Assembly (NCBI RefSeq): GCF_022919575.1
Contig: NZ_CP095071.1
Coordinates: forward strand, 1,736,001-1,800,000
DNA length: 64,000 nucleotides
Direction: 5' to 3'
From: Gracilibacillus salinarum
GTDB taxonomy: Bacteria; Bacillota; Bacilli; Bacillales; Amphibacillaceae
The notes below the pieces were generated by a model that worked only from the letters and a program-made list of their open reading frames with translations, had not been told where the DNA came from and did no database searches. Shown in pieces: positions 7,944 through 58,065 of the stretch (its first letter is position 1; each line of letters opens with the position of its first letter). Both the position numbers and the translations under genes were made by a program.

Positions 7944-8710
7944 TAATGATTCACCTCCTTTATCGTTTCATCTAATTGGACTCTGTCAATTTCGTTTACA
8001 ACCAGCCTCGAATCCGCATCAAAAAAAGTACGGCTTATTGGCACACTGAAATCTTCTTTTATATGATGCAGTTCTTCTATCAGTTCGGTCCATTCCTTTT
8101 CATATTCCATGATGAACTGTTTTTTTTGTTTATCGTCAGCCGGAATAAAAGTCAGGCTGCCATAGATAGGATTCGTTTTCACATCAAGGTAATACATTTG
8201 AACGAGCAAACTTTGTTCGTTATTAGCTTCACTGGGCTGTTCCTCATTTTTTAAAATGAAAAATTTGTGCCAAACAGAAATACCCGGGCTAATCTTCGCA
8301 TGATTTTTCTTTAACCTTATGTTGTTTATGAGACCGATAAATAATGCGTAAATAGATGGAGCAATAATGGAGACAGCGATACTGCTGATGATCATAATGA
8401 TCGAAAAGGAAAAGATAAAAATAAACGGATCAATGTTATCTTTCAAGGTGGAGATCGAGTTAATATACGTGATATCAAACGTTGAGAAATACGTAATATC
8501 AAACGACGTTAAAATGAGATCTGTAAAAAAATACAGGATATTGAAGAACAAAATCGAGACTAGTATAGTGGGAATCCACAGCAGCGAGGTGATTGCGACT
8601 AATTCTGTGTTCGATTGCTGATTAGAGGTGGAAGTTCCCAAGCCTTTCGTAATTAAATAAGTAAGTACACCCGGAATACCTAAGATGAAAAAGGAAAAAA
8701 AAGCGTCCAC
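7943..8710 (-). CDS. Hypothetical membrane protein with a cytoplasmic tail
   Basis: A 255-residue protein with three or four hydrophobic stretches in the first 140 residues (FFSFFILGIPGVLTYLI, LLWIPTILVSILFFNILYFF, FIFIFSFSIIMIISSIAVSII and IYALFIGLI). A soluble C-terminal half of about 115 residues follows, rich in charged residues (MEYEKEWTELIEELHHIKED). It probably starts at GTG 8710 with a GGAAG-type site a little far upstream. The stop overlaps the start of a 43-residue basic protein, so the two should be made together. I do not recognise the family. Confidence 0.75.
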   Translation of the reverse strand: MDAFFSFFILGIPGVLTYLITKGLGTSTSNQQSNTELVAITSLLWIPTILVSILFFNILYFFTDLILTSFDITYFSTFDITYINSISTLKDNIDPFIFIFSFSIIMIISSIAVSIIAPSIYALFIGLINNIRLKKNHAKISPGISVWHKFFILKNEEQPSEANNEQSLLVQMYYLDVKTNPIYGSLTFIPADDKQKKQFIMEYEKEWTELIEELHHIKEDFSVPISRTFFDADSRLVVNEIDRVQLDETIKEVNH

Positions 8711-8791
8711 GTTGCATCACTTCCTTTTATCAGGATTCACTCTTTATTTTACCATATATTATCAGATATAGTTAGTTAATTCCACAGTAAT

Positions 8792-8904
8792 TGATAAAGT
8801 GAGACTTTGATCAGGGTGTTAGCGGCTGTTTACTCTCAATTAGCTTCTTTGTAATCTCGAAACTTGAAGTGAGAGACTTACAGACGGTTAGCACCGTGAC
8901 CAAT
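8792..8904 (+). repeat. Dispersed hairpin repeat family 1, copy A
   Basis: It begins GATAAAGTGAGACTTTGATCAG and ends ACAGACGGTTAGCACCGTGA. The inner part holds CTGT..CTCTC and GAGAG..ACAG arms around TTAGCTTCTTTG..CTCGAAACTTGAAG. Five further copies lie in this window in the same orientation. Confidence 0.75.
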
Positions 8905-8967
8905 GAAACCAGAAAATAAGAATGTCAACACGTCGCCTTTTTTCCACACTGTTATCAGACTTTCCAC

Positions 8968-9927
8968 TTAATACCCCTTATCATAATCGACTAAATTAAT
9001 ATCCACTGCGCCGGACTCCAGATAACGTCTTAAGTTAGGGATAAACACATCCCGGACAACACGTTGATCATAATATTCCGTTGAGCCAGCGGTATGCGGG
9101 GTAACGATGACATTATCCATCGTCCATAAAGGACTGTCTTCCGGCAAAGGCTCTGTTGCAAAAACATCTAAACCAGCACCTGCGATTTCCTTATGTTGCA
9201 AAGCCTGAATCAACTCTTCTTCTTTGACAATAGGCCCTCTTCCAATGTTAATCAGAAAAGCACTATTCTTCATCTGACGGAACGCTTCTGCACCAAACAT
9301 GCCGGTCGTTTCGTCGGTCAAAGGGAGCGTAATGACGACATAATCACATTGAGGCAAAAGCTCTGCCAGCTGATCCGGTGTATACATTGCATCGATGTGC
9401 TCTGCCGGCTTACCTGAGTGACGCATGCCGAGCACTTTCATCCCGAATGCCTTTGCAACTTTTGCTGTTTCCTGACCAATCGCACCAACACCGATAATGC
9501 CTATCGTTTTTTCATGGATTTCAAGTCGAAGCCCTGCATGGTGCCACGTTTTTTGCTGTTGTTGCCGCACATAGGCATGAATATTCCGCGTTAAACCAAG
9601 CATCAATGCAAAGATCGTCTCAGAGATCGGATAAGCATGTATACCATTGGCACTCGTCAGCATCACATTTCGTTGTTGCAATGCATCTAGTGGAAGGCTA
9701 TTCACACCCGCACTGAAGGTTTGTATCCATTTTAGTTTCTCGTTTTTCTCCAGCAAAATCGGGGCAATCGCCCTCTTCCAATGCAGCACCACCTCTGCCT
9801 CTTCCAGGCTAGCCTCGATCTTGTCCGTGTCCTTTGTGATCACATTCCACTCAGGTACTACTTGTTTGATTTCGTTAACTAATAATTCATTCAGATTCCA
9901 GTTGATTACTAATGTACGCTTTGTCAT
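8968..9927 (-). CDS. D-2-hydroxyacid dehydrogenase (NAD-dependent)
   Basis: A 319-residue cytoplasmic oxidoreductase of the D-isomer 2-hydroxyacid dehydrogenase family. The Rossmann motif is GIIGVGAIGQETA near residues 142-154. The catalytic arginine lies in NIGRGPIV (near 230), the glutamate in FATEPLPED (near 260) and the histidine in VTPHTAGST (near 278). The length fits the family. It could reduce glyoxylate, hydroxypyruvate or another 2-oxoacid; the substrate cannot be decided. The gene stands alone, with a good AGGAGG-like site upstream. Confidence 0.92.
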   Translation of the reverse strand: MTKRTLVINWNLNELLVNEIKQVVPEWNVITKDTDKIEASLEEAEVVLHWKRAIAPILLEKNEKLKWIQTFSAGVNSLPLDALQQRNVMLTSANGIHAYPISETIFALMLGLTRNIHAYVRQQQQKTWHHAGLRLEIHEKTIGIIGVGAIGQETAKVAKAFGMKVLGMRHSGKPAEHIDAMYTPDQLAELLPQCDYVVITLPLTDETTGMFGAEAFRQMKNSAFLINIGRGPIVKEEELIQALQHKEIAGAGLDVFATEPLPEDSPLWTMDNVIVTPHTAGSTEYYDQRVVRDVFIPNLRRYLESGAVDINLVDYDKGY

Positions 9928-10364: not shown

Positions 10365-11441
10365 TTATTGAAAATATTCCACCAGACCCTGCGTTATTCC
10401 CTGAGCCAGACCTACTTGGTAATCTTCGGTCTGAATCGTTAGCAGATCATGGGGATTTGTTATAAATCCTAACTCCAATAATAAAGCTTGATGCTGATTA
10501 TTACGCAGCACATAATAACCATCTTGCATCACGCCGCGATTCATTAATCCGGTATAATCGCTCACATCACTTTGCATCTGATAGGCCAGCTGGCGACTTG
10601 TTTCATCATAATAATGAACGCTTGTTCCATTAATGGCCGAGGAACTCATCGCATTAAAATGTAAGCTTAGAAATAAATCGGTGTTATAGGCGTTACTGAT
10701 CTGTACTCTTTGTTGAAGCGAGACGTAACGATCATCACTCCGCGTTAACAGAACATGTGCCCCGGCATTACGCAATGCGGTAGCAATGTCATCCGCAACC
10801 TGCAAGGTCAAATCTTTTTCAAAAACATCGCCTACACCAATAGCGCCTGGATCGATTCCACCATGTCCTGGATCAAGAATAATGGTTTTGCCTTCTAACT
10901 CCTCTGTACGCTGCTGATTAGAGACAGGCGGCTGCACCTCTGTTTCAGTTGATGGTGGCGTTGCCTGTTTATTGGTCAACCAGGAAGCGATCCAGCCGGT
11001 ACTCCCGTTTAATCGTTCGACTTTCACCCAATTCTTGCTCGTCTCTACCAAGTGATAGGTATCCCCATGTGAAGCAGAACCAATCATGCGATAGGTAGTA
11101 CCCGGACCCGAACGAATGCGCACGTTTTGTTTCGTAATAGTAATTTCTTCATCTTGGGCAGTTTCGTTCTCCGTATTCGCATCCTTCTTACCAATTACAT
11201 ACTGTGATGCTACCCAGCCTTTTTGTCCACCGAAATAAGTCTGGTACCAGCCGTAAGATTCCTCAAAGACCGATACATGATCACCTTGTTTCAGTTTTCC
11301 TATGACAGCACTATCAGATGATGGTCCCTCTCTGACCATGAGAACATCCGCATCGACTTCATAGACCTCGCTCGCACTGACGGAAACCGGCAATAAAAAG
11401 AATAGAAAAATTAAGCTGAAGATGATAACTCTTTTTGTCAC
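10365..11441 (-). CDS. Secreted N-acetylmuramoyl-L-alanine amidase with two SH3b domains
   Basis: A 358-residue exported autolysin that cuts the bond between N-acetylmuramic acid and L-alanine of peptidoglycan. A signal peptide covers about residues 1-23 (FSLIFLFFLLPVSVSASE). Two bacterial SH3 domains follow at about 25-85 and 100-160, each with a VREGPSS/IRSGPGT start and a GW(V/I)AS end. The zinc-dependent Amidase_3 domain spans about 183-358. Its zinc ligands are in DPGHGG, VFEKDL and SLHFNA, and the catalytic glutamate is in LLELGFITN. Likely role: wall turnover or cell separation. A terminator follows directly. Confidence 0.95.
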   Translation of the reverse strand: MTKRVIIFSLIFLFFLLPVSVSASEVYEVDADVLMVREGPSSDSAVIGKLKQGDHVSVFEESYGWYQTYFGGQKGWVASQYVIGKKDANTENETAQDEEITITKQNVRIRSGPGTTYRMIGSASHGDTYHLVETSKNWVKVERLNGSTGWIASWLTNKQATPPSTETEVQPPVSNQQRTEELEGKTIILDPGHGGIDPGAIGVGDVFEKDLTLQVADDIATALRNAGAHVLLTRSDDRYVSLQQRVQISNAYNTDLFLSLHFNAMSSSAINGTSVHYYDETSRQLAYQMQSDVSDYTGLMNRGVMQDGYYVLRNNQHQALLLELGFITNPHDLLTIQTEDYQVGLAQGITQGLVEYFQ

Positions 11442-11643
11442 AAAATCCCCCCTGTTGCATGTCTTTTAATCACTTAATTTTATATGTAATACAAAAATAG
11501 TAATTTCAATATAACAAAAATTGACTAATTCGTACATTTTTTTATATGACTTTTCGTCATGAAATTTGAATTTTGTCTATTGGAATATTATAGACTGACA
11601 GAAAATATAATGAGATTACATTATGTTTGAAGGAGTGACCGGT

Positions 11644-13071
11644 ATGGGAGCAATCTCAGGGGAAGAGTATATGAGTCGGATAAAACAGCGAAACGTTGAA
11701 TTATGGCATAACGGAGAGAAAGTTCAGAATTTCCTTACACATCCTGTCTTTCAAGGCATCATAAAAAGCCAAGCATCTTTATATGATATGCAATTGCAGG
11801 ATAGTACGATGACGTATCCTTCCCCCGAAACAGGTAATGCAGTTGGTCTCTCGTACATGAAACCATACACACAAGAGGACTTGATCAAACGAAGGAAAAT
11901 GGTGCAGAAATGGGCTAAAGTCAGTGGAGGTATGCTTGGTAGAAGCCCTGATTACATGAATACAGTATTAATGGCTTTTGCCGCTTCGACAAAATTATTA
12001 CAAGGGGAAGAAAATTGTTTTCCTCAACATCTTCAACAATTCTATCAAACTGCTAAGGAACAGGATCTATCTTTTACTCATACATTTATCAACCCTCAAG
12101 TCAACCGTTCGCAGCTTTACTTTGAAGATTCAACAGAACCAATTGCAGCAAAAGTTGTGGAAGAGAACAAGGATGGCATTGTCATCAAAGGAGCACGTTT
12201 ACTTGCCACACAAGGAGGCATTACCGATGAAGTGCTTGTATTCTCTTCTGGCGGTATTTCGGAAGAAGCATTAGGATATGCATTCGCTATTCCCAGTGAT
12301 ACAAAAGGTTTAAAGTTCATCAGCAGATCTTCCTTTGTTGGTGGTGCATCTACATATGATCATCCGTTAAGCGCTCGTTTTGAGGAAGCAGACTGCCTTG
12401 TCGTATTTGATCATGTAACGGTTCCTTGGGAGCGGGTATTTTTTTATAACAATATAAAAGTTTCCAATAACTTCTTAATGAACAGTGCGTTCGTTCCTTT
12501 TGCCATGCACCAGATTGTCAGCAGACAAATTGTAAAGACACAATTTGTCGTTGGGTTGGCAGAATCAATTGTATCGGCCATTCATATCAGCGAATTTCCC
12601 CACGTGCAGGAAAAAATGGCGGAACTCATCATGACGTTAGAAACAATGGAAGCCTTACTTCTCAAAGCAGAAACAAATGCAGCGATAGATGAATTCGGTC
12701 TGATGCGACCAGAGACCACCCCGCTCAAAGTGGCAACATCCACCTTCTCCAAAGGATACAGTCGATTAACCGAAATCATTCAACTCTTAGGTTCCAGCGG
12801 ACTAGTATCGATTCCAACCGAAGCAGATTTCAAAGCAGAAATTAGACCTGATCTTGATCACTACCTCCAATGCGCCACACTAGACGCAAAAGAACGTGTG
12901 CAATTGTTTCGTCTTGCCTGGGATGCAACAATGAGTGCGTTCGGCAGCAGACAGATTCAGTATGAACGCTTTTTCTTTGGAAATCCCCATCGTCTGTTAA
13001 GTGAACTGTATCGAAGCTATGAAATCCAGAAACATACTGATTATATTGATAGCTTTTTACGGGATGAATAA
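11644..13071 (+). CDS. HpaB-type flavin-dependent aromatic monooxygenase
   Basis: A 475-residue protein of the 4-hydroxyphenylacetate 3-hydroxylase oxygenase family, which uses reduced flavin and oxygen to hydroxylate phenolic rings. Family features include the N-terminal YMSRIKQRNVELWHNGEKV, HPVFQG, TFINPQVNRS, the flavin-binding VPWERVF and the C-terminal DYLQC-like DHYLQCATLDAKERV region. GAAGGAGTGA precedes the ATG at 11644; an ATG at 11623 lies upstream of that site. No HpaC-type flavin reductase is nearby, so it would need one encoded elsewhere. The substrate is not determined. Confidence 0.9.
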   Translation: MGAISGEEYMSRIKQRNVELWHNGEKVQNFLTHPVFQGIIKSQASLYDMQLQDSTMTYPSPETGNAVGLSYMKPYTQEDLIKRRKMVQKWAKVSGGMLGRSPDYMNTVLMAFAASTKLLQGEENCFPQHLQQFYQTAKEQDLSFTHTFINPQVNRSQLYFEDSTEPIAAKVVEENKDGIVIKGARLLATQGGITDEVLVFSSGGISEEALGYAFAIPSDTKGLKFISRSSFVGGASTYDHPLSARFEEADCLVVFDHVTVPWERVFFYNNIKVSNNFLMNSAFVPFAMHQIVSRQIVKTQFVVGLAESIVSAIHISEFPHVQEKMAELIMTLETMEALLLKAETNAAIDEFGLMRPETTPLKVATSTFSKGYSRLTEIIQLLGSSGLVSIPTEADFKAEIRPDLDHYLQCATLDAKERVQLFRLAWDATMSAFGSRQIQYERFFFGNPHRLLSELYRSYEIQKHTDYIDSFLRDE

Positions 13072-49145: not shown

Positions 49146-49516
49146 GATATTCCCTCCAAAGTAATACTTTCTAGAATTCACCTGTATTTTATTAGAAAAA
49201 TTTCTAAAAATGAAAATTCATTAATTTTTATGTTGCGACAGTAGTATCGTTGTTCACTATTTTTTCCTAGCCGTGTATTTACCGGCAATCACTGCCTCAT
49301 TCGATAGATTTTTAATAGTTATCGCCTCTTTCATCATGATGTTACATCCTACTTTAAACGACAGATAACCGTTTATCAATAGACCAGTTTTTATTTTAAT
49401 TATTTAACGATGCAACTTTACTAGTTGATCATCTTTCAGATAATAAAAAAATAGCTTCCAAGGGGGGCATTAGAAAAGCTGTTTGCCCTCATCCTATAGC
49501 AGAGGCATCGTTTTTC

Positions 49517-49588
49517 TTATACTTGTTACATCATATATTTTCACTATATCCAACTGCACCTTCGCTAACATATTATGCTTTCCTAACG
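49517..49588. repeat. Dispersed repeat family 2, copy c
   Basis: TTATACTTGTTACA, ATTTTCACTATATCC, TTCGCTAACATATTATGC and TTTCCTAACG match copies a and b. It lies just upstream of the peptide cluster. Confidence 0.6.
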
Positions 49589-49720
49589 AACCTTAACCAG
49601 TCTCCCCCTCTCCCTTTTACAAAAATATAACTTCTTTTTCAAAAAATTAAAATAAAAGTGATCCAAAAACGATCTATAAACAATAGCTTAATAGAAATAA
49701 TGAAAGAGAGGTGAACACAA

Positions 49721-49813
49721 ATGACTGACGTTACTCAAATTTTAAGTGACATTTTAGGCGATAGTGTGAATGACTCTGGAAATATTTCAATCGACGTAAG
49801 TGACTTACTTTAA
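49721..49813 (+). CDS. Tandem acidic peptide 1
   Basis: A 30-residue peptide, first of four paralogues. It has TQILSD (residues 5-10), a Gly/Asp/Asn/Ser-rich middle and an ending IDVSDLL. It carries six Asp and no basic, cysteine or aromatic residue. GAGAGGTGA precedes the ATG. It is the most diverged member, ending VSDLL rather than LSDIL. The peptide has no signal sequence, double-glycine leader or known precursor motif. The family is not known to me; with the exporter downstream, a secreted acidic peptide is the simplest guess. Confidence 0.8.
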   Translation: MTDVTQILSDILGDSVNDSGNISIDVSDLL

Positions 49814-49851
49814 AACGAAAAAGAAATAAAAATGCTAAAGGAGATGAGCAA

Positions 49852-49944
49852 ATGTTAGACGTAACTCAAATTCTAAGCGATGTATTGAATGATAGTGGAA
49901 ATGATACAGGTAATGTAGATTTTGATTTAAGCAACATTCTTTAA
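49852..49944 (+). CDS. Tandem acidic peptide 2
   Basis: A 30-residue paralogue: DVTQILSDVLN at the start, SGNDTGN in the middle and DFDLSNIL at the end. It has its own AAAGGAGAT site and lies 38 bases after peptide 1. It has the only aromatic residue (one Phe) in the family. Codons differ from peptides 3 and 4 at many silent positions while the protein pattern is held, which supports translation. Confidence 0.82.
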   Translation: MLDVTQILSDVLNDSGNDTGNVDFDLSNIL

Positions 49945-49976
49945 GGAAGCAGCTAATAGAGAGGGAGTGACCAAAA

Positions 49977-50066
49977 ATGGATATTACTCAAATTCTTAGT
50001 GATGTATTGAATGGAAGCGGAAATGATACAGGTAATGTTGATATCGATCTAAGCGATATTCTATAA
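49977..50066 (+). CDS. Tandem acidic peptide 3
   Basis: A 29-residue paralogue with DITQILSDVLN, GSGNDTGN and VDIDLSDIL. GAGGGAGTGA precedes the ATG; the gap to peptide 2 is 32 bases. The LSD(V/I)L pattern occurs near both ends, suggesting two short amphipathic helices joined by a Gly/Asn/Asp turn. It is identical to peptide 4 at 27 of 29 residues. Confidence 0.85.
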   Translation: MDITQILSDVLNGSGNDTGNVDIDLSDIL

Positions 50067-50095
50067 AACACAAACAAAAAGAGGAGTGAAAAAAC

Positions 50096-50185
50096 ATGGA
50101 TATTACTCAAATTCTTAGTGATATATTAAATGGAAGCGCAAATGATACAGGTAATGTTGATATCGATTTAAGTGACATTCTTTAA
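50096..50185 (+). CDS. Tandem acidic peptide 4
   Basis: A 29-residue paralogue differing from peptide 3 only at residues 10 (Ile for Val) and 15 (Ala for Gly). The two genes differ at several silent third positions in their last nine codons, the mark of selection on the peptide. GAGGAGTGA precedes the ATG; the gap to peptide 3 is 29 bases. A terminator begins 10 bases after the stop. Confidence 0.85.
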   Translation: MDITQILSDILNGSANDTGNVDIDLSDIL

Positions 50186-50195
50186 ATAACGTAGG

Positions 50196-50232
50196 AGGAG
50201 CAACTAATCAATCATTCAGTTGCTCCTTTTTT
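50196..50232 (+). terminator. Terminator between peptide genes and exporter
   Basis: AGGAGCAACT (50196-50205) and AGTTGCTCCT (50218-50227) pair perfectly, followed by TTTTTT. Partial read-through would give abundant peptide mRNA and less exporter mRNA, a layout common in bacteriocin and pheromone operons (general knowledge). Confidence 0.88.
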
Positions 50233-50259
50233 CAATTAGCGTAAGGTGGGAGAGAAAAA

Positions 50260-51962
50260 ATGAAAATATTTATAAAGAAGTTTGGACATCCATATAAAAA
50301 ACCAATTACTATCCTGTTACTATTACTGCTGCTTCAAGTAACAACGCAGCTGTTATTACCATCCATTATGGCCGTAATGGTAGATGAGGGAATCGTAAAC
50401 AATAATATTCCCAAAATACTATTAATGGGAATTATAATGTTAGCTGTAGCAGTACTCGGAGTTGGTTTTGCAATTGGTGCGAACTATTATATTTCTAAAG
50501 TTACGCAGCGTGTGGCGCGTGATGCTCGAAGCGATATGTTTTACACCATTGAACGATTACCTAGACAGCAATTTGAATCGTTTGGGGAATCTACTCTTAT
50601 CACCAGGACTACAAACGATATTATGCAAGTGATACAATTCCTAAACACGCTCTTACGAGTAGTTGTGATGGCACCAATGATGTTCGTTGGAGCATTGGTT
50701 TTGTCTTTATGGATGAACCCTACCCTTTCATTAGTCATTTTCACTTCTCTTCCTCTTCTTATTTTTTCCGTATGGTTTATTGCCAGAAAAGCCACACCCC
50801 TGTTTCATCGAATCAGAGATCAAGTAGATAAGATACACTTCGTCTTACGTGAAACATTAGCAGGAATGAAGGTTATAAAGCTTTATAAAAAAATCAGCGT
50901 GAAAAAAAACGATTCAAAGACACCAATTACAGTTACTATAATTTATCATTGTCTGTAAATAGACTAATGACATACTTAACACCTGCAATCATGTTAATTT
51001 TGAATTTTTCTATTTTAGTTATCGTCTGGGTGGGCAGCTCTCTGATTAGTAATGGGAATTTACAAGTTGGGCAGTTAATGGCATTTATTCAATATGCTAT
51101 TCAAATAATGTTTAGTGTTGTAATGGCTTCTGTTGCACTAACAGCTTACCCGAGAGCTTCTGTTTCAGCAAGCAGAATGATGGAAGTTTTGGATATAAAG
51201 CCTGGATCAGCCCAACCAATTAATAAACATATTCGCAAGCAAATAAAAGGAAAAAGTCTACAATTGAACGATGTAAGTTTTTACTATCCAGGTGCAGAAC
51301 AACCAGCTTTATCTAATATAAACATGACCATCAAGCCAAACAGAATAAACGCTATTGTAGGAGGTACCGGGTGCGGTAAATCAACATTACTTCAGTTATT
51401 ACTTAAATTTTATAAACCGACCTCTGGTTCCATTCATGCCGGATCGGTACCTCTTGAAGATTTTAAGGAAGCTGATTGGAGAAATGCTGTAGGATATGTT
51501 CCGCAAAAGAATCATTTGTTTACAGGGACAATGGAAGAGAATATCAGACTAGGAAACGTAACTGCAACAAATGAAGAATTACTAAACGCAATCGAAGATG
51601 CCAATTTACGACCGTTGATAGAAAGCTTTTCGAACAAACATCATACAAACCTAAAACCTAAAGCTGCTAATATGTCCGGGGGACAGAAGCAACGAGTTGC
51701 ACTTGCAAGAGCATTTATTTCAAATGCCCCGATATTAATGTTCGATGATAGCTTATCCGCATTAGATTTTAAGACTTCAGAGTATGTACAAGCTTCGTTC
51801 CGAAAGAATACTAATGTATCTACTATCATTGTAGCTAGCCAGGATATTCATGCAGTGAGTTATGCTGATCATATTGTGATTCTTGATAAAGGGAAAGTAG
51901 TCGCTAGTGGCTCCTATCAGCAATTAACTGCTGATGATTCGTTTCGTGTAAAGGAAGGATAA
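50260..51962 (+). pseudogene. ABC exporter half-transporter, first subunit, frameshifted
   Basis: Bases 50260-50958 encode the membrane half (six helices, 232 residues before an early stop). The rest, in another frame to 51962, holds the last membrane helices and the ATPase: GGTGCGKST, QKNHLFTGT, MSGGQKQR and MFDDSLSALD. The break is at A7 (50887-50893). One extra A would restore the reading IKLYKKNQREKKRFKDTNY into the downstream frame. The Walker B end is Asp-Asp rather than Asp-Glu, the degenerate site typical of one subunit of heterodimeric exporters of BmrC/TM287 type. It may be a recent mutation, a sequencing error or slippage-regulated. GGTGGGAG precedes the ATG. Confidence 0.88.
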
Positions 51963-51965
51963 GAC

Positions 51966-53732
51966 ATGACTAGAGATAAAAATACGTATAATAAGATTCA
52001 ACCTGTTATCAAACGATTACTGAACTATATAAAACCTTACAAACGGAAACTATTTTCAGTTGTTATATTCGCAGTGTGCAGTACTTCTTTTACTATTCTA
52101 AGTCCCGTTATTCTAGGGTTAGCTGTAACAGAATTATACGAAGGAGCAGTCCAGGGAAGTAAGGTGGATCTGCAGTATATCTTTCTGATAATTTGTCTGT
52201 TAGCAGTACTATACTTACTAAGTTCTGTATTCACCTACATGCAAGAATATCTTCTTATTGGTGTGACCCAAAAAATTATTTACACCCTTAGAAGTGAAGT
52301 GTATCAAAAGCTTTATAAATTGCCAATAACTTTTTTTGATCATACCAGTCATGGAGACATCCTCAGCAGGTCTATTAATGATATTGAGAAAATAAATAAT
52401 ACATTCAAGCAGATGATCAGTCAATTTCTCACATCCGTTATTTCATTACTAGGTATCATGCTTATCATGCTTTATATAAGTCCTCTTATAACGGGCGTTG
52501 TATTTCTCATTATTCCCGGGAGTATATTTATTACAAAGAAAATAGTGAAGAAATCTCAACTATATTTTAAAAATCAACAGAAGCTGTTAGGTAATCTAAA
52601 TGGTTTTGTGGAAGAATCATATACGGGACAGGAAACGATAAAGGCTTTTAATCTGGAAAATGATGCAGATGAGAATTTCCAAAAAAGAAATAACCTTTTA
52701 TACGAATATAGCTGGAAAGCACAGTATATATCCAGTACCATAACCCCTCTGCTAAAGCTTTTACAAAACATGGTGTATATTGTGGTATGCGTCCTTGGCA
52801 GTATTTTTGTCATAAATCAATTGATAACGTTGGGGAATATTCAAGCTTTTATTATGTATGTGCGTCAGTTCCAGCAGCCTGTTAATAAATTGGCTACGAT
52901 TATGAATACTATTCAGTCAACGATAGCTGCTTCCGAAAGGGTCTTTCAACTATTAGATGAGAAGGAACAGCCTCTATCTGCTAAAAAAAATGCTGACCAT
53001 TCTAGTCATAATAATGAATTTGTTCATTTTGAAAATGTAAGCTTCTCATATGACCATTCTTCATCTGTTATAAATAACGTAAATCTAAAAATAAATAAGG
53101 GCGAAACTGTTGCTATTATTGGGGAGAACGGGGCAGGTAAGTCAACATTATCTTTATTACTGCTTGGTCTGTTAGCACCAAGTGAAGGACGAATCCTGAT
53201 AGGTGGTAATAACATCCACCAAATAGAGGAGCAAGAGAAATTTGAATTATTTGGAACAGTATTCCAAGAAAATTGGCTGTTTAGCAGAAGCATCAGGGAA
53301 AATATCGCTTATGGCTCTAAAGCTGATGATGTAACGGATGAAGAGGTTATAAAAGCGGCAGAGTTAGCTCAAGCCGATTACTTTATTCGGAATTTACCTG
53401 ATGGCTACAACACCATCATTAATGAATCCGGATCTAACTTATCAGAGGGCGAAAAACAACTTATAGCAATTGCGCGAGCTGTTATGGCACAACCAGAAAT
53501 ATTAGTGCTCGACGAAGCCACTAGTCATGTTGATATGATGATGGATGAACGTATCCAAACTGGCTTACAAGGCTTAATGAGAGGACGAACAACGTTTATT
53601 ATTGCTCATCAACCATCGACAATAAAAACGGCTGATAGAATTATCGTCTTAGAAAATGGAGAGATAATCCAAGAAGGCAATCATGACGAATTATGGCAAA
53701 AGCATGGTTATTATAAAGATTTTATTAGCTGA
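51966..53732 (+). CDS. ABC exporter half-transporter, second subunit
   Basis: A 588-residue intact half-transporter: six membrane helices in the first 320 residues, then the ATPase with GENGAGKST (near 387), QENWLF, LSEGEKQ and the consensus LVLDEATSHVD. It has the catalytic Glu that the first subunit lacks, so the pair should form a heterodimer with one active site. There is no C39 peptidase domain, so it would export peptides without cleaving a double-glycine leader. It starts 3 bases after the first subunit and is probably the exporter of the upstream acidic peptides (inference); a drug pump of BmrCD type is the alternative. Confidence 0.92.
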   Translation: MTRDKNTYNKIQPVIKRLLNYIKPYKRKLFSVVIFAVCSTSFTILSPVILGLAVTELYEGAVQGSKVDLQYIFLIICLLAVLYLLSSVFTYMQEYLLIGVTQKIIYTLRSEVYQKLYKLPITFFDHTSHGDILSRSINDIEKINNTFKQMISQFLTSVISLLGIMLIMLYISPLITGVVFLIIPGSIFITKKIVKKSQLYFKNQQKLLGNLNGFVEESYTGQETIKAFNLENDADENFQKRNNLLYEYSWKAQYISSTITPLLKLLQNMVYIVVCVLGSIFVINQLITLGNIQAFIMYVRQFQQPVNKLATIMNTIQSTIAASERVFQLLDEKEQPLSAKKNADHSSHNNEFVHFENVSFSYDHSSSVINNVNLKINKGETVAIIGENGAGKSTLSLLLLGLLAPSEGRILIGGNNIHQIEEQEKFELFGTVFQENWLFSRSIRENIAYGSKADDVTDEEVIKAAELAQADYFIRNLPDGYNTIINESGSNLSEGEKQLIAIARAVMAQPEILVLDEATSHVDMMMDERIQTGLQGLMRGRTTFIIAHQPSTIKTADRIIVLENGEIIQEGNHDELWQKHGYYKDFIS

Positions 53733-55687: not shown

Positions 55688-56240
55688 GATCTGCAAGAAA
55701 GCAAACTAATACCTAAACCCGCCGCTATCGCTTCTTTAATGATCTGAGTACTGTCAAACTCCAACTTTTTCTCAGAGTCGATGATGTCTGCTTTTCTAAC
55801 TCTTAAACTGAAACATCCCCTTCATTTCTGGCCAAACGGTGATTCAGAGCGACTACTATACACATGGAATCCTCCGCAAAAGATTCAATAACCCGATGTT
55901 TAATACATCTTCCTCATCTATACTTGTTGCAGAAAACTCTGTAAATACAGAGATCCCTCACTACCTCCTTGATACCAGGGTAATGTATCTGGTGTAGTTT
56001 CTACTTCAGCTCGTGGACTTTCGCTTCCGAACGCTCTTAATAAGCTCAAAAAAACGTCAATGCCTTCGTTTGAAACGGGGAACATAACACAATTGAAAAT
56101 TCACGTTTTACCAGCAGTTGGTTGATCTTTATCACAGACAATGAACCCTTGGCACTTTCATCACGAATTGCCCAGTAGATGACTCAACAATATATTGGCT
56201 ATTTTTAATGTATTTCCAATCGTGATGGTTGGTTCAATCA
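55688..56240 (-). pseudogene. Scrambled remains of a duplicated LysR gene
   Basis: Two blocks match the intact LysR gene at 57163-58065 but in the wrong order and with deletions. Bases 55688-55910 match about 57350-57612, lacking about 60 bases. Bases 56010-56240 match 57170-57345 and then jump to about 57648-57720. Shared stretches include TAATACCTAAACCCGC, TTTAATGATCTGAGTACTG, TGGACTTTCGCTTCCGAA and CAATTGAAAATTCACGTTTTACC. Many stops and shifts make it non-functional. It looks like an old tandem duplicate that was rearranged around the LOV gene. Confidence 0.85.
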
Positions 56241-57162: not shown

Positions 57163-58065
57163 TTACTCCAGTTCTCGTGGACTTTCGCTTCCGAATGCTC
57201 TTAATAAGCTCAAAAAAACGTTCAGCGCCTTCGTTTGAAACGGCGAACGTAACACAATTGAAAATTCACGTTTTACCGGCAGTTGGTTCAGCTCCACCAC
57301 AGACAACGAACCCCTGGCACTTTCATCGCGGACTGCCCAATAAGAAAGCAGACTAATACCTAAACCCGCTGCTATCGATTCTTTAATGATCTGAGTACTG
57401 CCAAACTCCAATCTTTTCTCAGGGTCAATGCCAATCGATTGAAACATTTTTTCCGTAACTTCCCTGGTTCCCGAACCTTGTTCCCGCACGATCCATGTCT
57501 CCTTTTCTAATTCTGAAACGGAAACATTCCCTTCTTTTCTGGCCAAACGGTGGTTAGGAGCGGCTACTATACACATGGAATCCTCTGCAAAAGGTTCAAT
57601 AACCAAATGCTTATCATGAAAGGCTCCTTCCACTATCCCTACATCTATTTGATGACTCAACACTAGATTGGCTATTTTGGATGTATTTCCAATCGTGATA
57701 GTTGGCTCAATCAGTGGATAGTGCTGGTGCATGTTTTTGATCACATGGGGCAACACATATTCACCAAAAGTATAACTGGCACCAATCGAAATAGGACCGC
57801 TTGCCTTATTAGTCAGATCATCGATTAAGTCGTGCATTTTTGCATAAAGCCCCAAGATCTCCTTTGCATGGTAATACACCATTTCACCCGCCTGATTCAA
57901 GCGGACAAACTTGTTGCTTCGTTCCAGTAATTTGGATCCCATAGTTTGCTCCAGCGATCGGATGTACTGACTGACAGCAGGCTGGGTCATGTGTAATTTT
58001 TCTGCTGCACGCGAGAAATTCTTTAATTCTGCTACGGTGACGAAGACTTGTAATTGTTGATCCAT
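57163..58065 (-). CDS. LysR family transcriptional regulator
   Basis: A 300-residue LysR-type regulator. The N-terminal winged helix is clear: FVTVAELKNFSRAAEKLHMTQPAVSQYIRSLEQTMGSKLL. The inducer-binding domain follows (about 90-290). It is divergent from a YeiH-type transporter gene, an arrangement seen with CysL/YeiE-like regulators, so it probably controls that gene and itself in response to a sulfur or other small-molecule signal (inference). A rearranged remnant of a close copy lies at 55688-56240. Confidence 0.92.
   Translation of the reverse strand: MDQQLQVFVTVAELKNFSRAAEKLHMTQPAVSQYIRSLEQTMGSKLLERSNKFVRLNQAGEMVYYHAKEILGLYAKMHDLIDDLTNKASGPISIGASYTFGEYVLPHVIKNMHQHYPLIEPTITIGNTSKIANLVLSHQIDVGIVEGAFHDKHLVIEPFAEDSMCIVAAPNHRLARKEGNVSVSELEKETWIVREQGSGTREVTEKMFQSIGIDPEKRLEFGSTQIIKESIAAGLGISLLSYWAVRDESARGSLSVVELNQLPVKREFSIVLRSPFQTKALNVFLSLLRAFGSESPRELE

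Follow-up and report, generated by a model that had tools for sequence, protein, structure and literature searches.

The peptide array and its exporter genes

The DNA analysed here (‘the window’) is a stretch of 64,000 nucleotides from Gracilibacillus salinarum (contig NZ_CP095071.1, positions 1,736,001 to 1,800,000, forward strand), and our subject is a cassette within it: four tandem genes for short acidic peptides, followed on the same strand by the genes of a heterodimeric ABC exporter (Table 1). An original prediction, made from the sequence alone, had drawn attention to four consecutive genes of 29–30 residues, each with a ribosome binding site and set 29–38 bases apart; we see the same reading frames, gaps of 38, 32 and 29 nt, and a Shine–Dalgarno (SD)-like site ahead of each. 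The products of genes 1 to 4 (MTDVTQILSDILGDSVNDSGNISIDVSDLL, MLDVTQILSDVLNDSGNDTGNVDFDLSNIL, MDITQILSDVLNGSGNDTGNVDIDLSDIL and MDITQILSDILNGSANDTGNVDIDLSDIL) each contain six Asp and no Glu, Lys, Arg, His or Cys, in agreement with the acidic make-up (some six Asp; Lys, Arg, His and Cys absent) previously ascribed to them. The motif D-x-T-Q-[IL]-L occurs four times in the six frames of the window, matching the number of peptide genes, and in a search of the 4.8 Mb genome the four genes are the sole matches with E <1. Genes 3 and 4, said to differ at two residues and several silent sites, carry two replacement changes over ~66 sites and five silent changes over ~18 (Fisher p 0.004).

Table 1. 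Features of the peptide–exporter cassette, in window coordinates (aa, amino acids; ORF, open reading frame)
Feature	Position	Strand	Remarks
Acidic peptide gene 1	49721..49813	+	30 aa; ORF with SD-like site; orthologue at the same position in Oceanobacillus iheyensis (G1135/L118)
Acidic peptide gene 2	49852..49944	+	30 aa; ORF with SD-like site; family match
Acidic peptide gene 3	49977..50066	+	29 aa; ORF with SD-like site; query for searches of relatives
Acidic peptide gene 4	50096..50185	+	29 aa; ORF with SD-like site; compared with gene 3 in the text
Terminator-like hairpin and T-run, gap between array and exporter	50194..50232	+	Own search, loops of up to 14 nt
ABC1, 5' piece (transmembrane part)	50260..50958	+	PF00664; 71% identical to the first 216 residues of L118 ABC1
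ABC1, 3' piece, other frame (end of transmembrane part and ATPase domain, Walker B ending Asp-Asp)	50949..51962	+	PF00005, PF00664; 70% identical to the remainder of L118 ABC1
ABC2, second half-exporter	51966..53732	+	588 aa, intact; PF00664, PF00005; best PDB sequence match TM_0288, E 2.8e-128

Where a terminator was expected behind the array, our own search finds a terminator-like hairpin and T-run; a stock scan limited to loops of 3–8 nt reported no terminator in this region. A promoter scan of 49400–50300 found one site against 3.9 expected, that is, none beyond chance.

By sequence the exporter consists of two half-transporters, each with a transmembrane and an ATPase domain and resembling TM287 and TM288 (for ABC1, the PDB search used the Lentibacillus sediminis protein, that of the window being broken). 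The Walker B motif ends in Asp in ABC1 and in Glu in ABC2, an asymmetry typical of heterodimers in which one ATPase site is degenerate. The Pfam domains of the window exporter are ABC_membrane and ABC_tran, C39 not being among them, and the peptides have no leader; as the original prediction held, a double-glycine leader with a C39 exporter does not fit this system. Both half-exporters announced by the original prediction are present, but it overlooked that ABC1 is broken in this strain into two overlapping frames, the pieces of which match the two halves of an intact homologue. The break falls within an A-rich run that may have been misassembled. Of the 14 ABC1 genes next to an array, 12 are open, the two exceptions being the window and Geomicrobium sediminis; in the peptide-free relative L083 (G and L numbers are our handles for genomes and loci) ABC1 likewise lies in two frames. 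A programmed frameshift is unlikely, given that the G. sediminis break lies elsewhere in the gene and that the other 12 are open.

Distribution of the family

With peptide 3 as query, 11 of 150 related genomes gave a match with E no higher than 1; in five the best E was <1e-7 (the window strain, G017, G021, G064 and G123), and in six, treated as chance, it was 0.24–0.76. A scan of one genome per species then gave 12 named loci, and profile searches gave more. In all, 17 genomes bear an array, with 2–12 copies wherever its extent can be read: Lentibacillus sediminis, L. jeotgali and L. kapialis; Halobacillus hunanensis; Shouchella shacheensis; Scopulibacillus darangshiensis; Peribacillus cavernae; Alkalicoccobacillus porphyridii; G. 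sediminis and Geomicrobium sp. JCM 19038 and JCM 19039; Bacillaceae bacterium JMAK1; the window strain; G021; G064; G279 (taken as Alkalihalobacillus sp. FSL W8-0930); and G1135 (taken as Oceanobacillus iheyensis HTE831), in which the array is accompanied by an intact exporter. Judging by organism name, we take these hosts to be mostly salt- or alkali-tolerant. As read from these genomes, the family is a small cassette scattered among such Bacillaceae: positive genomes number 1 of 17 in the genus sample, 7 of 159 at family level and 8 of 397 in the order, two of the last being of the diverged type described below. The class sample (n = 398) returned three loci already known and three weak matches (E 0.004–0.009), and the phylum sample (n = 299) the window only.

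Viral contigs, plasmids (searched with peptide 1) and phages (searched with peptide 3) hold no relatives, and we rejected a mobile-element origin on these grounds. A protein database search returned 45 proteins at E up to 1, called only ‘hypothetical protein’ or ‘uncharacterized protein’ where named at all. Among these 45, four metagenomic variants (P0042–P0045) of 34–35 aa have T-[EG] in place of T-Q and a longer turn. Two genomes, G383 and G441, each hold one diverged copy (L049 ~9676–9766 and L050 ~9650–9740), that of G383 with an internal stop; the DNA fetched around these copies contains no exporter of the peptide-linked type.

Sequence features and selection

Selection was assessed on 15 loci with 90 copies, 70 of them distinct (L034 and L044 are close strains). 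Pooled within-array dN/dS is 0.04–0.20 in 13 of the 15, dS being saturated and the ratio not computable in the other two; between loci, pS is 0.81 and pN 0.16 (1792 non-independent pairs). The repeats thus have the synonymous bias that was foreseen for them, and by these ratios the peptides are coding genes under protein-level selection. An SD-like site precedes all 90 copies by a loose pattern, and 65 have GGAGGTG. Net charge is −4 to −7 in 89 of the 90, a degenerate copy in L047 standing at −1.

Across 89 different peptides (one degenerate copy excluded) core positions D1, T3, Q4 and L6 are invariant. Conservation is highest in the N-terminal block and looser at the tail, which is where copies within one array differ. 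There is no leader: with start codons inferred from SD spacing, D-x-T-Q begins 1–2 residues past the start in nearly every copy. The helical moment of the N-terminal 11 residues lies on average 2.5 s.d. above shuffled sequences (68 peptides), and the structure model has a single helix at residues 4–18. By eye the turn that follows resembles the calcium loop of an EF-hand or dockerin, a candidate we rejected: with E values of up to 10 admitted, Pfam matches none of the 33 peptides scanned to either, and reports only DUF6971, for one member at E 0.15.

The family appears to be undescribed, as had been proposed. Pfam, NCBIfam, PHROGs and PADLOC yield no accepted match to the peptides (in PHROGs one at chance level, E 0.058; in PADLOC nothing, the matches of ABC2 there being to its ATPase domain only). 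The best PDB sequence match is AcrIE10 at E 0.37, Foldseek with the low-confidence peptide model found none, and literature searches, limited for subscription papers, turned up no paper on the family.

Linkage of array and exporter

The prediction that the peptides would be conserved beside the same exporter pair in relatives could have failed here and did not: the pair lies behind a peptide copy in 16 of the 17 genomes, and the contig of the 17th (JCM 19038) breaks off within the array. The array is followed directly downstream by the pair, on the same strand and contig, in 14 genomes. The A. porphyridii contig ends within the array, with the pair located near the end of another contig, again behind a peptide copy; Scopulibacillus has a three-copy array without an adjoining exporter (L037) and the pair behind a peptide elsewhere (L134). 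Over 17 kb compared between the window and O. iheyensis (L118), DNA is shared only across 49641–53723. A terminator-like hairpin is found in 10 of 14 gaps between array and exporter and in 4 of 77 gaps between peptides (Fisher p 1e-7, relatedness ignored), from which an excess of peptide over exporter by termination appears likely.

When ORFs of at least 60 aa were clustered across 15 neighbourhoods, the exporter was the only widely shared group (12 of 15; absent from L037, L041 and L045). A sortase/fn3 group came next (7 of 15), followed by one group at five loci and one at four, both including three Geomicrobium loci; the rest reach at most three loci, several being antisense to arrays or confined to Geomicrobium. 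The 15 neighbourhoods have no maturase or modification enzyme in common, nor a separate small immunity gene, a receptor, a kinase or a regulator.

A sortase fused to an fn3-like part lies directly upstream of the array in L035 (8637–9587), and stand-alone secreted fn3-like proteins do so in L041 (9110–9520), L044 (8662–9096), L046 (7985–8461) and L047 (10670–11080). As a partner of the peptides the fn3/sortase group was set aside: it stands beside 7 of 15 loci, but an fn3 query finds relatives in 50 of 199 genomes, and it stays a lead. Next to the sortase beside both Lentibacillus arrays is a large secreted protein with an LPXTG-like end (L035 7255–8628; L038 15078–16511), the former without a match in Pfam. 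A low-complexity stretch of RALSLLI repeats lies upstream of Geomicrobium arrays (L034 ~11250–11804; L045 ~8651–9007).

A single exporter lineage

For comparison we took 36 array-less exporters from an ABC2 search of the 150 relatives. Upstream of the 26 nearest of these we see no family peptide, and their genomes give no peptide match at E <0.2. Just before ABC1 in 13 of the 26 is an ORF of 145–164 aa, as also in the Scopulibacillus locus L133 (14 of 27); in L086, L098 and L105 the contig ends too close to judge. All three such ORFs examined are MarR by Pfam.

Searches also list exporters from other phyla. In trees of exporters drawn from within the phylum, the peptide-linked rows fall to one side of a single branch for both subunits: 13 rows in an ABC2 tree of 49 (support 100/99), 16 in an ABC2 tree of 43 (100/99) and 14 in an ABC1 tree of 41 (100/100). 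Scopulibacillus appears twice in the ABC2 tree: L133 (behind its MarR-sized ORF) groups with the peptide-free exporters, L134 with the peptide-linked ones. The branches of window/O. iheyensis and of Geomicrobium are long and were flagged, leaving their inner placement unsure. One exporter lineage is repeatedly tied to the peptides, in keeping with the dedicated exporter originally suggested.

Other features of the window

At 55695–56240 there is a partial, rearranged second copy of a LysR-type gene (57163–58065; the label comes from reading the ORF rather than from a library match), comprising four pieces of 63–179 bp that are 87–91% identical and in scrambled order. Parts of a group II intron lie on the minus strand at 330–2236, with the D1–D4 region at 1998–2236 and domain V at 330–417.

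DISCUSSION

We infer that this chromosomal cassette serves to produce short acidic peptides and export them. Translation of every peptide would depend on a ribosome binding site of its own, and neither a leader nor a conserved maturase would be involved; the D-x-T-Q-I-L-S-D-I-L block would form an amphipathic helix, with a Gly/Asn/Asp turn and then a hydrophobic-acidic tail behind it. Owing to the hairpin, transcripts of the array would outnumber those of the exporter, a TM287/288-type heterodimer with sisters often found behind MarR genes, which would carry the peptides out. The cassette is probably read most simply as making the whole peptide in bulk and exporting it. Outside the cell, in salty or alkaline surroundings, the likeliest product would be a membrane- or surface-active peptide, the pump serving both secretion and self-protection, like the multidrug-type pumps of some leaderless bacteriocins. 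Taken alone, export of the peptides by the pair seems to us quite likely; the whole account, of leaderless, apparently unmodified acidic peptides sent out by a dedicated heterodimeric pump and active outside, we favour somewhat less firmly, and of the kind of extracellular activity we are much less sure.

The nearest described parallels are the multi-peptide leaderless bacteriocins. In the excerpted text of a review (PMC6131525), aureocin A70, garvicin KS and the cereucins are sets of three or four leaderless peptides of ~30–34 aa encoded together, ABC transporters are involved in secretion of the class, and for LsbB the multidrug-type LmrB serves as both exporter and protection; the leaderless bacteriocins listed there are cationic, with aureocin A70 at +4 to +5. 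Our cassette shares several leaderless peptides of ~30 aa and the adjoining ABC transporter (16 of 17 genomes here), but differs in a charge of −4 to −7, in having up to 12 copies, and in lacking a common immunity gene; neither Pfam nor NCBIfam indicates sequence kinship. Since the positive charge is missing and we found no separate immunity gene, we do not file the family under leaderless bacteriocins; the charges of 89 of the 90 copies also agree with the earlier view that the cationic leaderless class does not fit. Exporters of the TM287/288 type share the two half-transporters, the TM287- and TM288-like sequences and the Asp/Glu asymmetry at Walker B, but the present ones form a separate branch in both subunit trees and are tied to peptides, many of their sisters standing behind a MarR-sized ORF. 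Phenol-soluble modulins are small, leaderless, amphipathic peptides encoded by several genes and exported by the ABC transporter Pmt, which has separate ATPase and membrane subunits. By this description the present peptides are like them in being small, leaderless, probably amphipathic and multi-gene and, on our reading, ABC-exported; here the half-transporters are fused.

Several observations weigh against the account given above. ABC1 is frame-broken in two of the strains, at different places in the window strain and in G. sediminis, and the L037 array of Scopulibacillus has no exporter within ~10 kb downstream. Confidence in the peptide model is low (mean pLDDT 69), and conservation as strong as that seen here is unlike the rapid change common in toxins and pheromones. 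The charge of the exporter gives a mixed picture on which we do not lean: the transmembrane part of ABC2 is at +14.0 in the peptide-linked group against +11.1, and columns 158, 208 and 324 have become basic; yet column 138 has lost a basic residue, columns 73 and 110 have turned acidic, and ABC1 does not become more positive (9.1 against 10.1), its column 90 going from basic to acidic.

As to what the peptides do once outside, a bacteriocin-like role with the pump as protection may rank above a surface or matrix role, and that in turn above a signal. Peptides exported by the pair to form a structural or ion-binding coat on the producer itself would suit the strong conservation, high copy number and very acidic make-up, hosts that are mostly salt- or alkali-loving by name, and the want of an immunity gene common to the loci; a sortase adjoins the arrays of L. 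sediminis and L. jeotgali, and fn3-like proteins precede those of Geomicrobium, A. porphyridii and G279. Sortase–fn3 proteins are, however, common without arrays and absent from most loci, and we identified no anchoring or aggregation motif in the peptides, such that a coat strikes us as rather doubtful. Quorum signals, whether the exported peptides or pieces cut from them, would equally be small, exported-looking and present in several copies, but we consider them improbable: no receptor, kinase or regulator recurs beside the arrays, the N-terminal block is the most conserved part while the tail varies among copies of one array, and up to 12 copies would exceed the need of a signal.

The order of short ORF, terminator and heterodimeric exporter matches that of bmrB–bmrCD in Bacillus subtilis, as given in the excerpted text of PMC4191407, and might suggest that the ORFs are regulatory leaders controlling a drug pump by ribosome stalling. 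We regard this as very improbable: in that text there is one leader, with the terminator overlapping its coding region, whereas here 2–12 peptides are conserved at the protein level with silent divergence, where a leader needs one, and the hairpin follows the last stop codon. A search upstream of ten hairpins found a competing helix beyond chance in none (the lowest value was reached by 23 of 200 shuffles), and the L037 array has no adjoining exporter to control. A different doubt concerns the window strain and not the family, namely that its system no longer works, ABC1 being inactivated and the peptides a remnant. The two overlapping frames of ABC1, the occurrence of the array in only 1 of 17 genomes of the genus, and the single diverged, exporter-less copies of G383 and G441, one with an internal stop, lend this some weight; nevertheless, 70–71% identity to the intact homologue is preserved in both ABC1 pieces, neither ABC2 nor any of the four peptides is damaged, and the break may be an assembly error. 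We hold inactivation to be a real possibility, if a tentative one.

Returning to exported, extracellularly active peptides, we lean slightly towards an undescribed anionic class of leaderless secreted peptides, for which a multidrug-type exporter was recruited once and became peptide-dedicated, and whose members act extracellularly, perhaps on membranes or the wall in a cation-dependent way. If true, this would add an acidic branch to the leaderless secreted peptides, a class presented as cationic in the excerpted review (PMC6131525). It would also offer a natural experiment in the passage from multidrug-type to dedicated peptide exporter, with the linked lineage and its peptide-free sister both found in Scopulibacillus.

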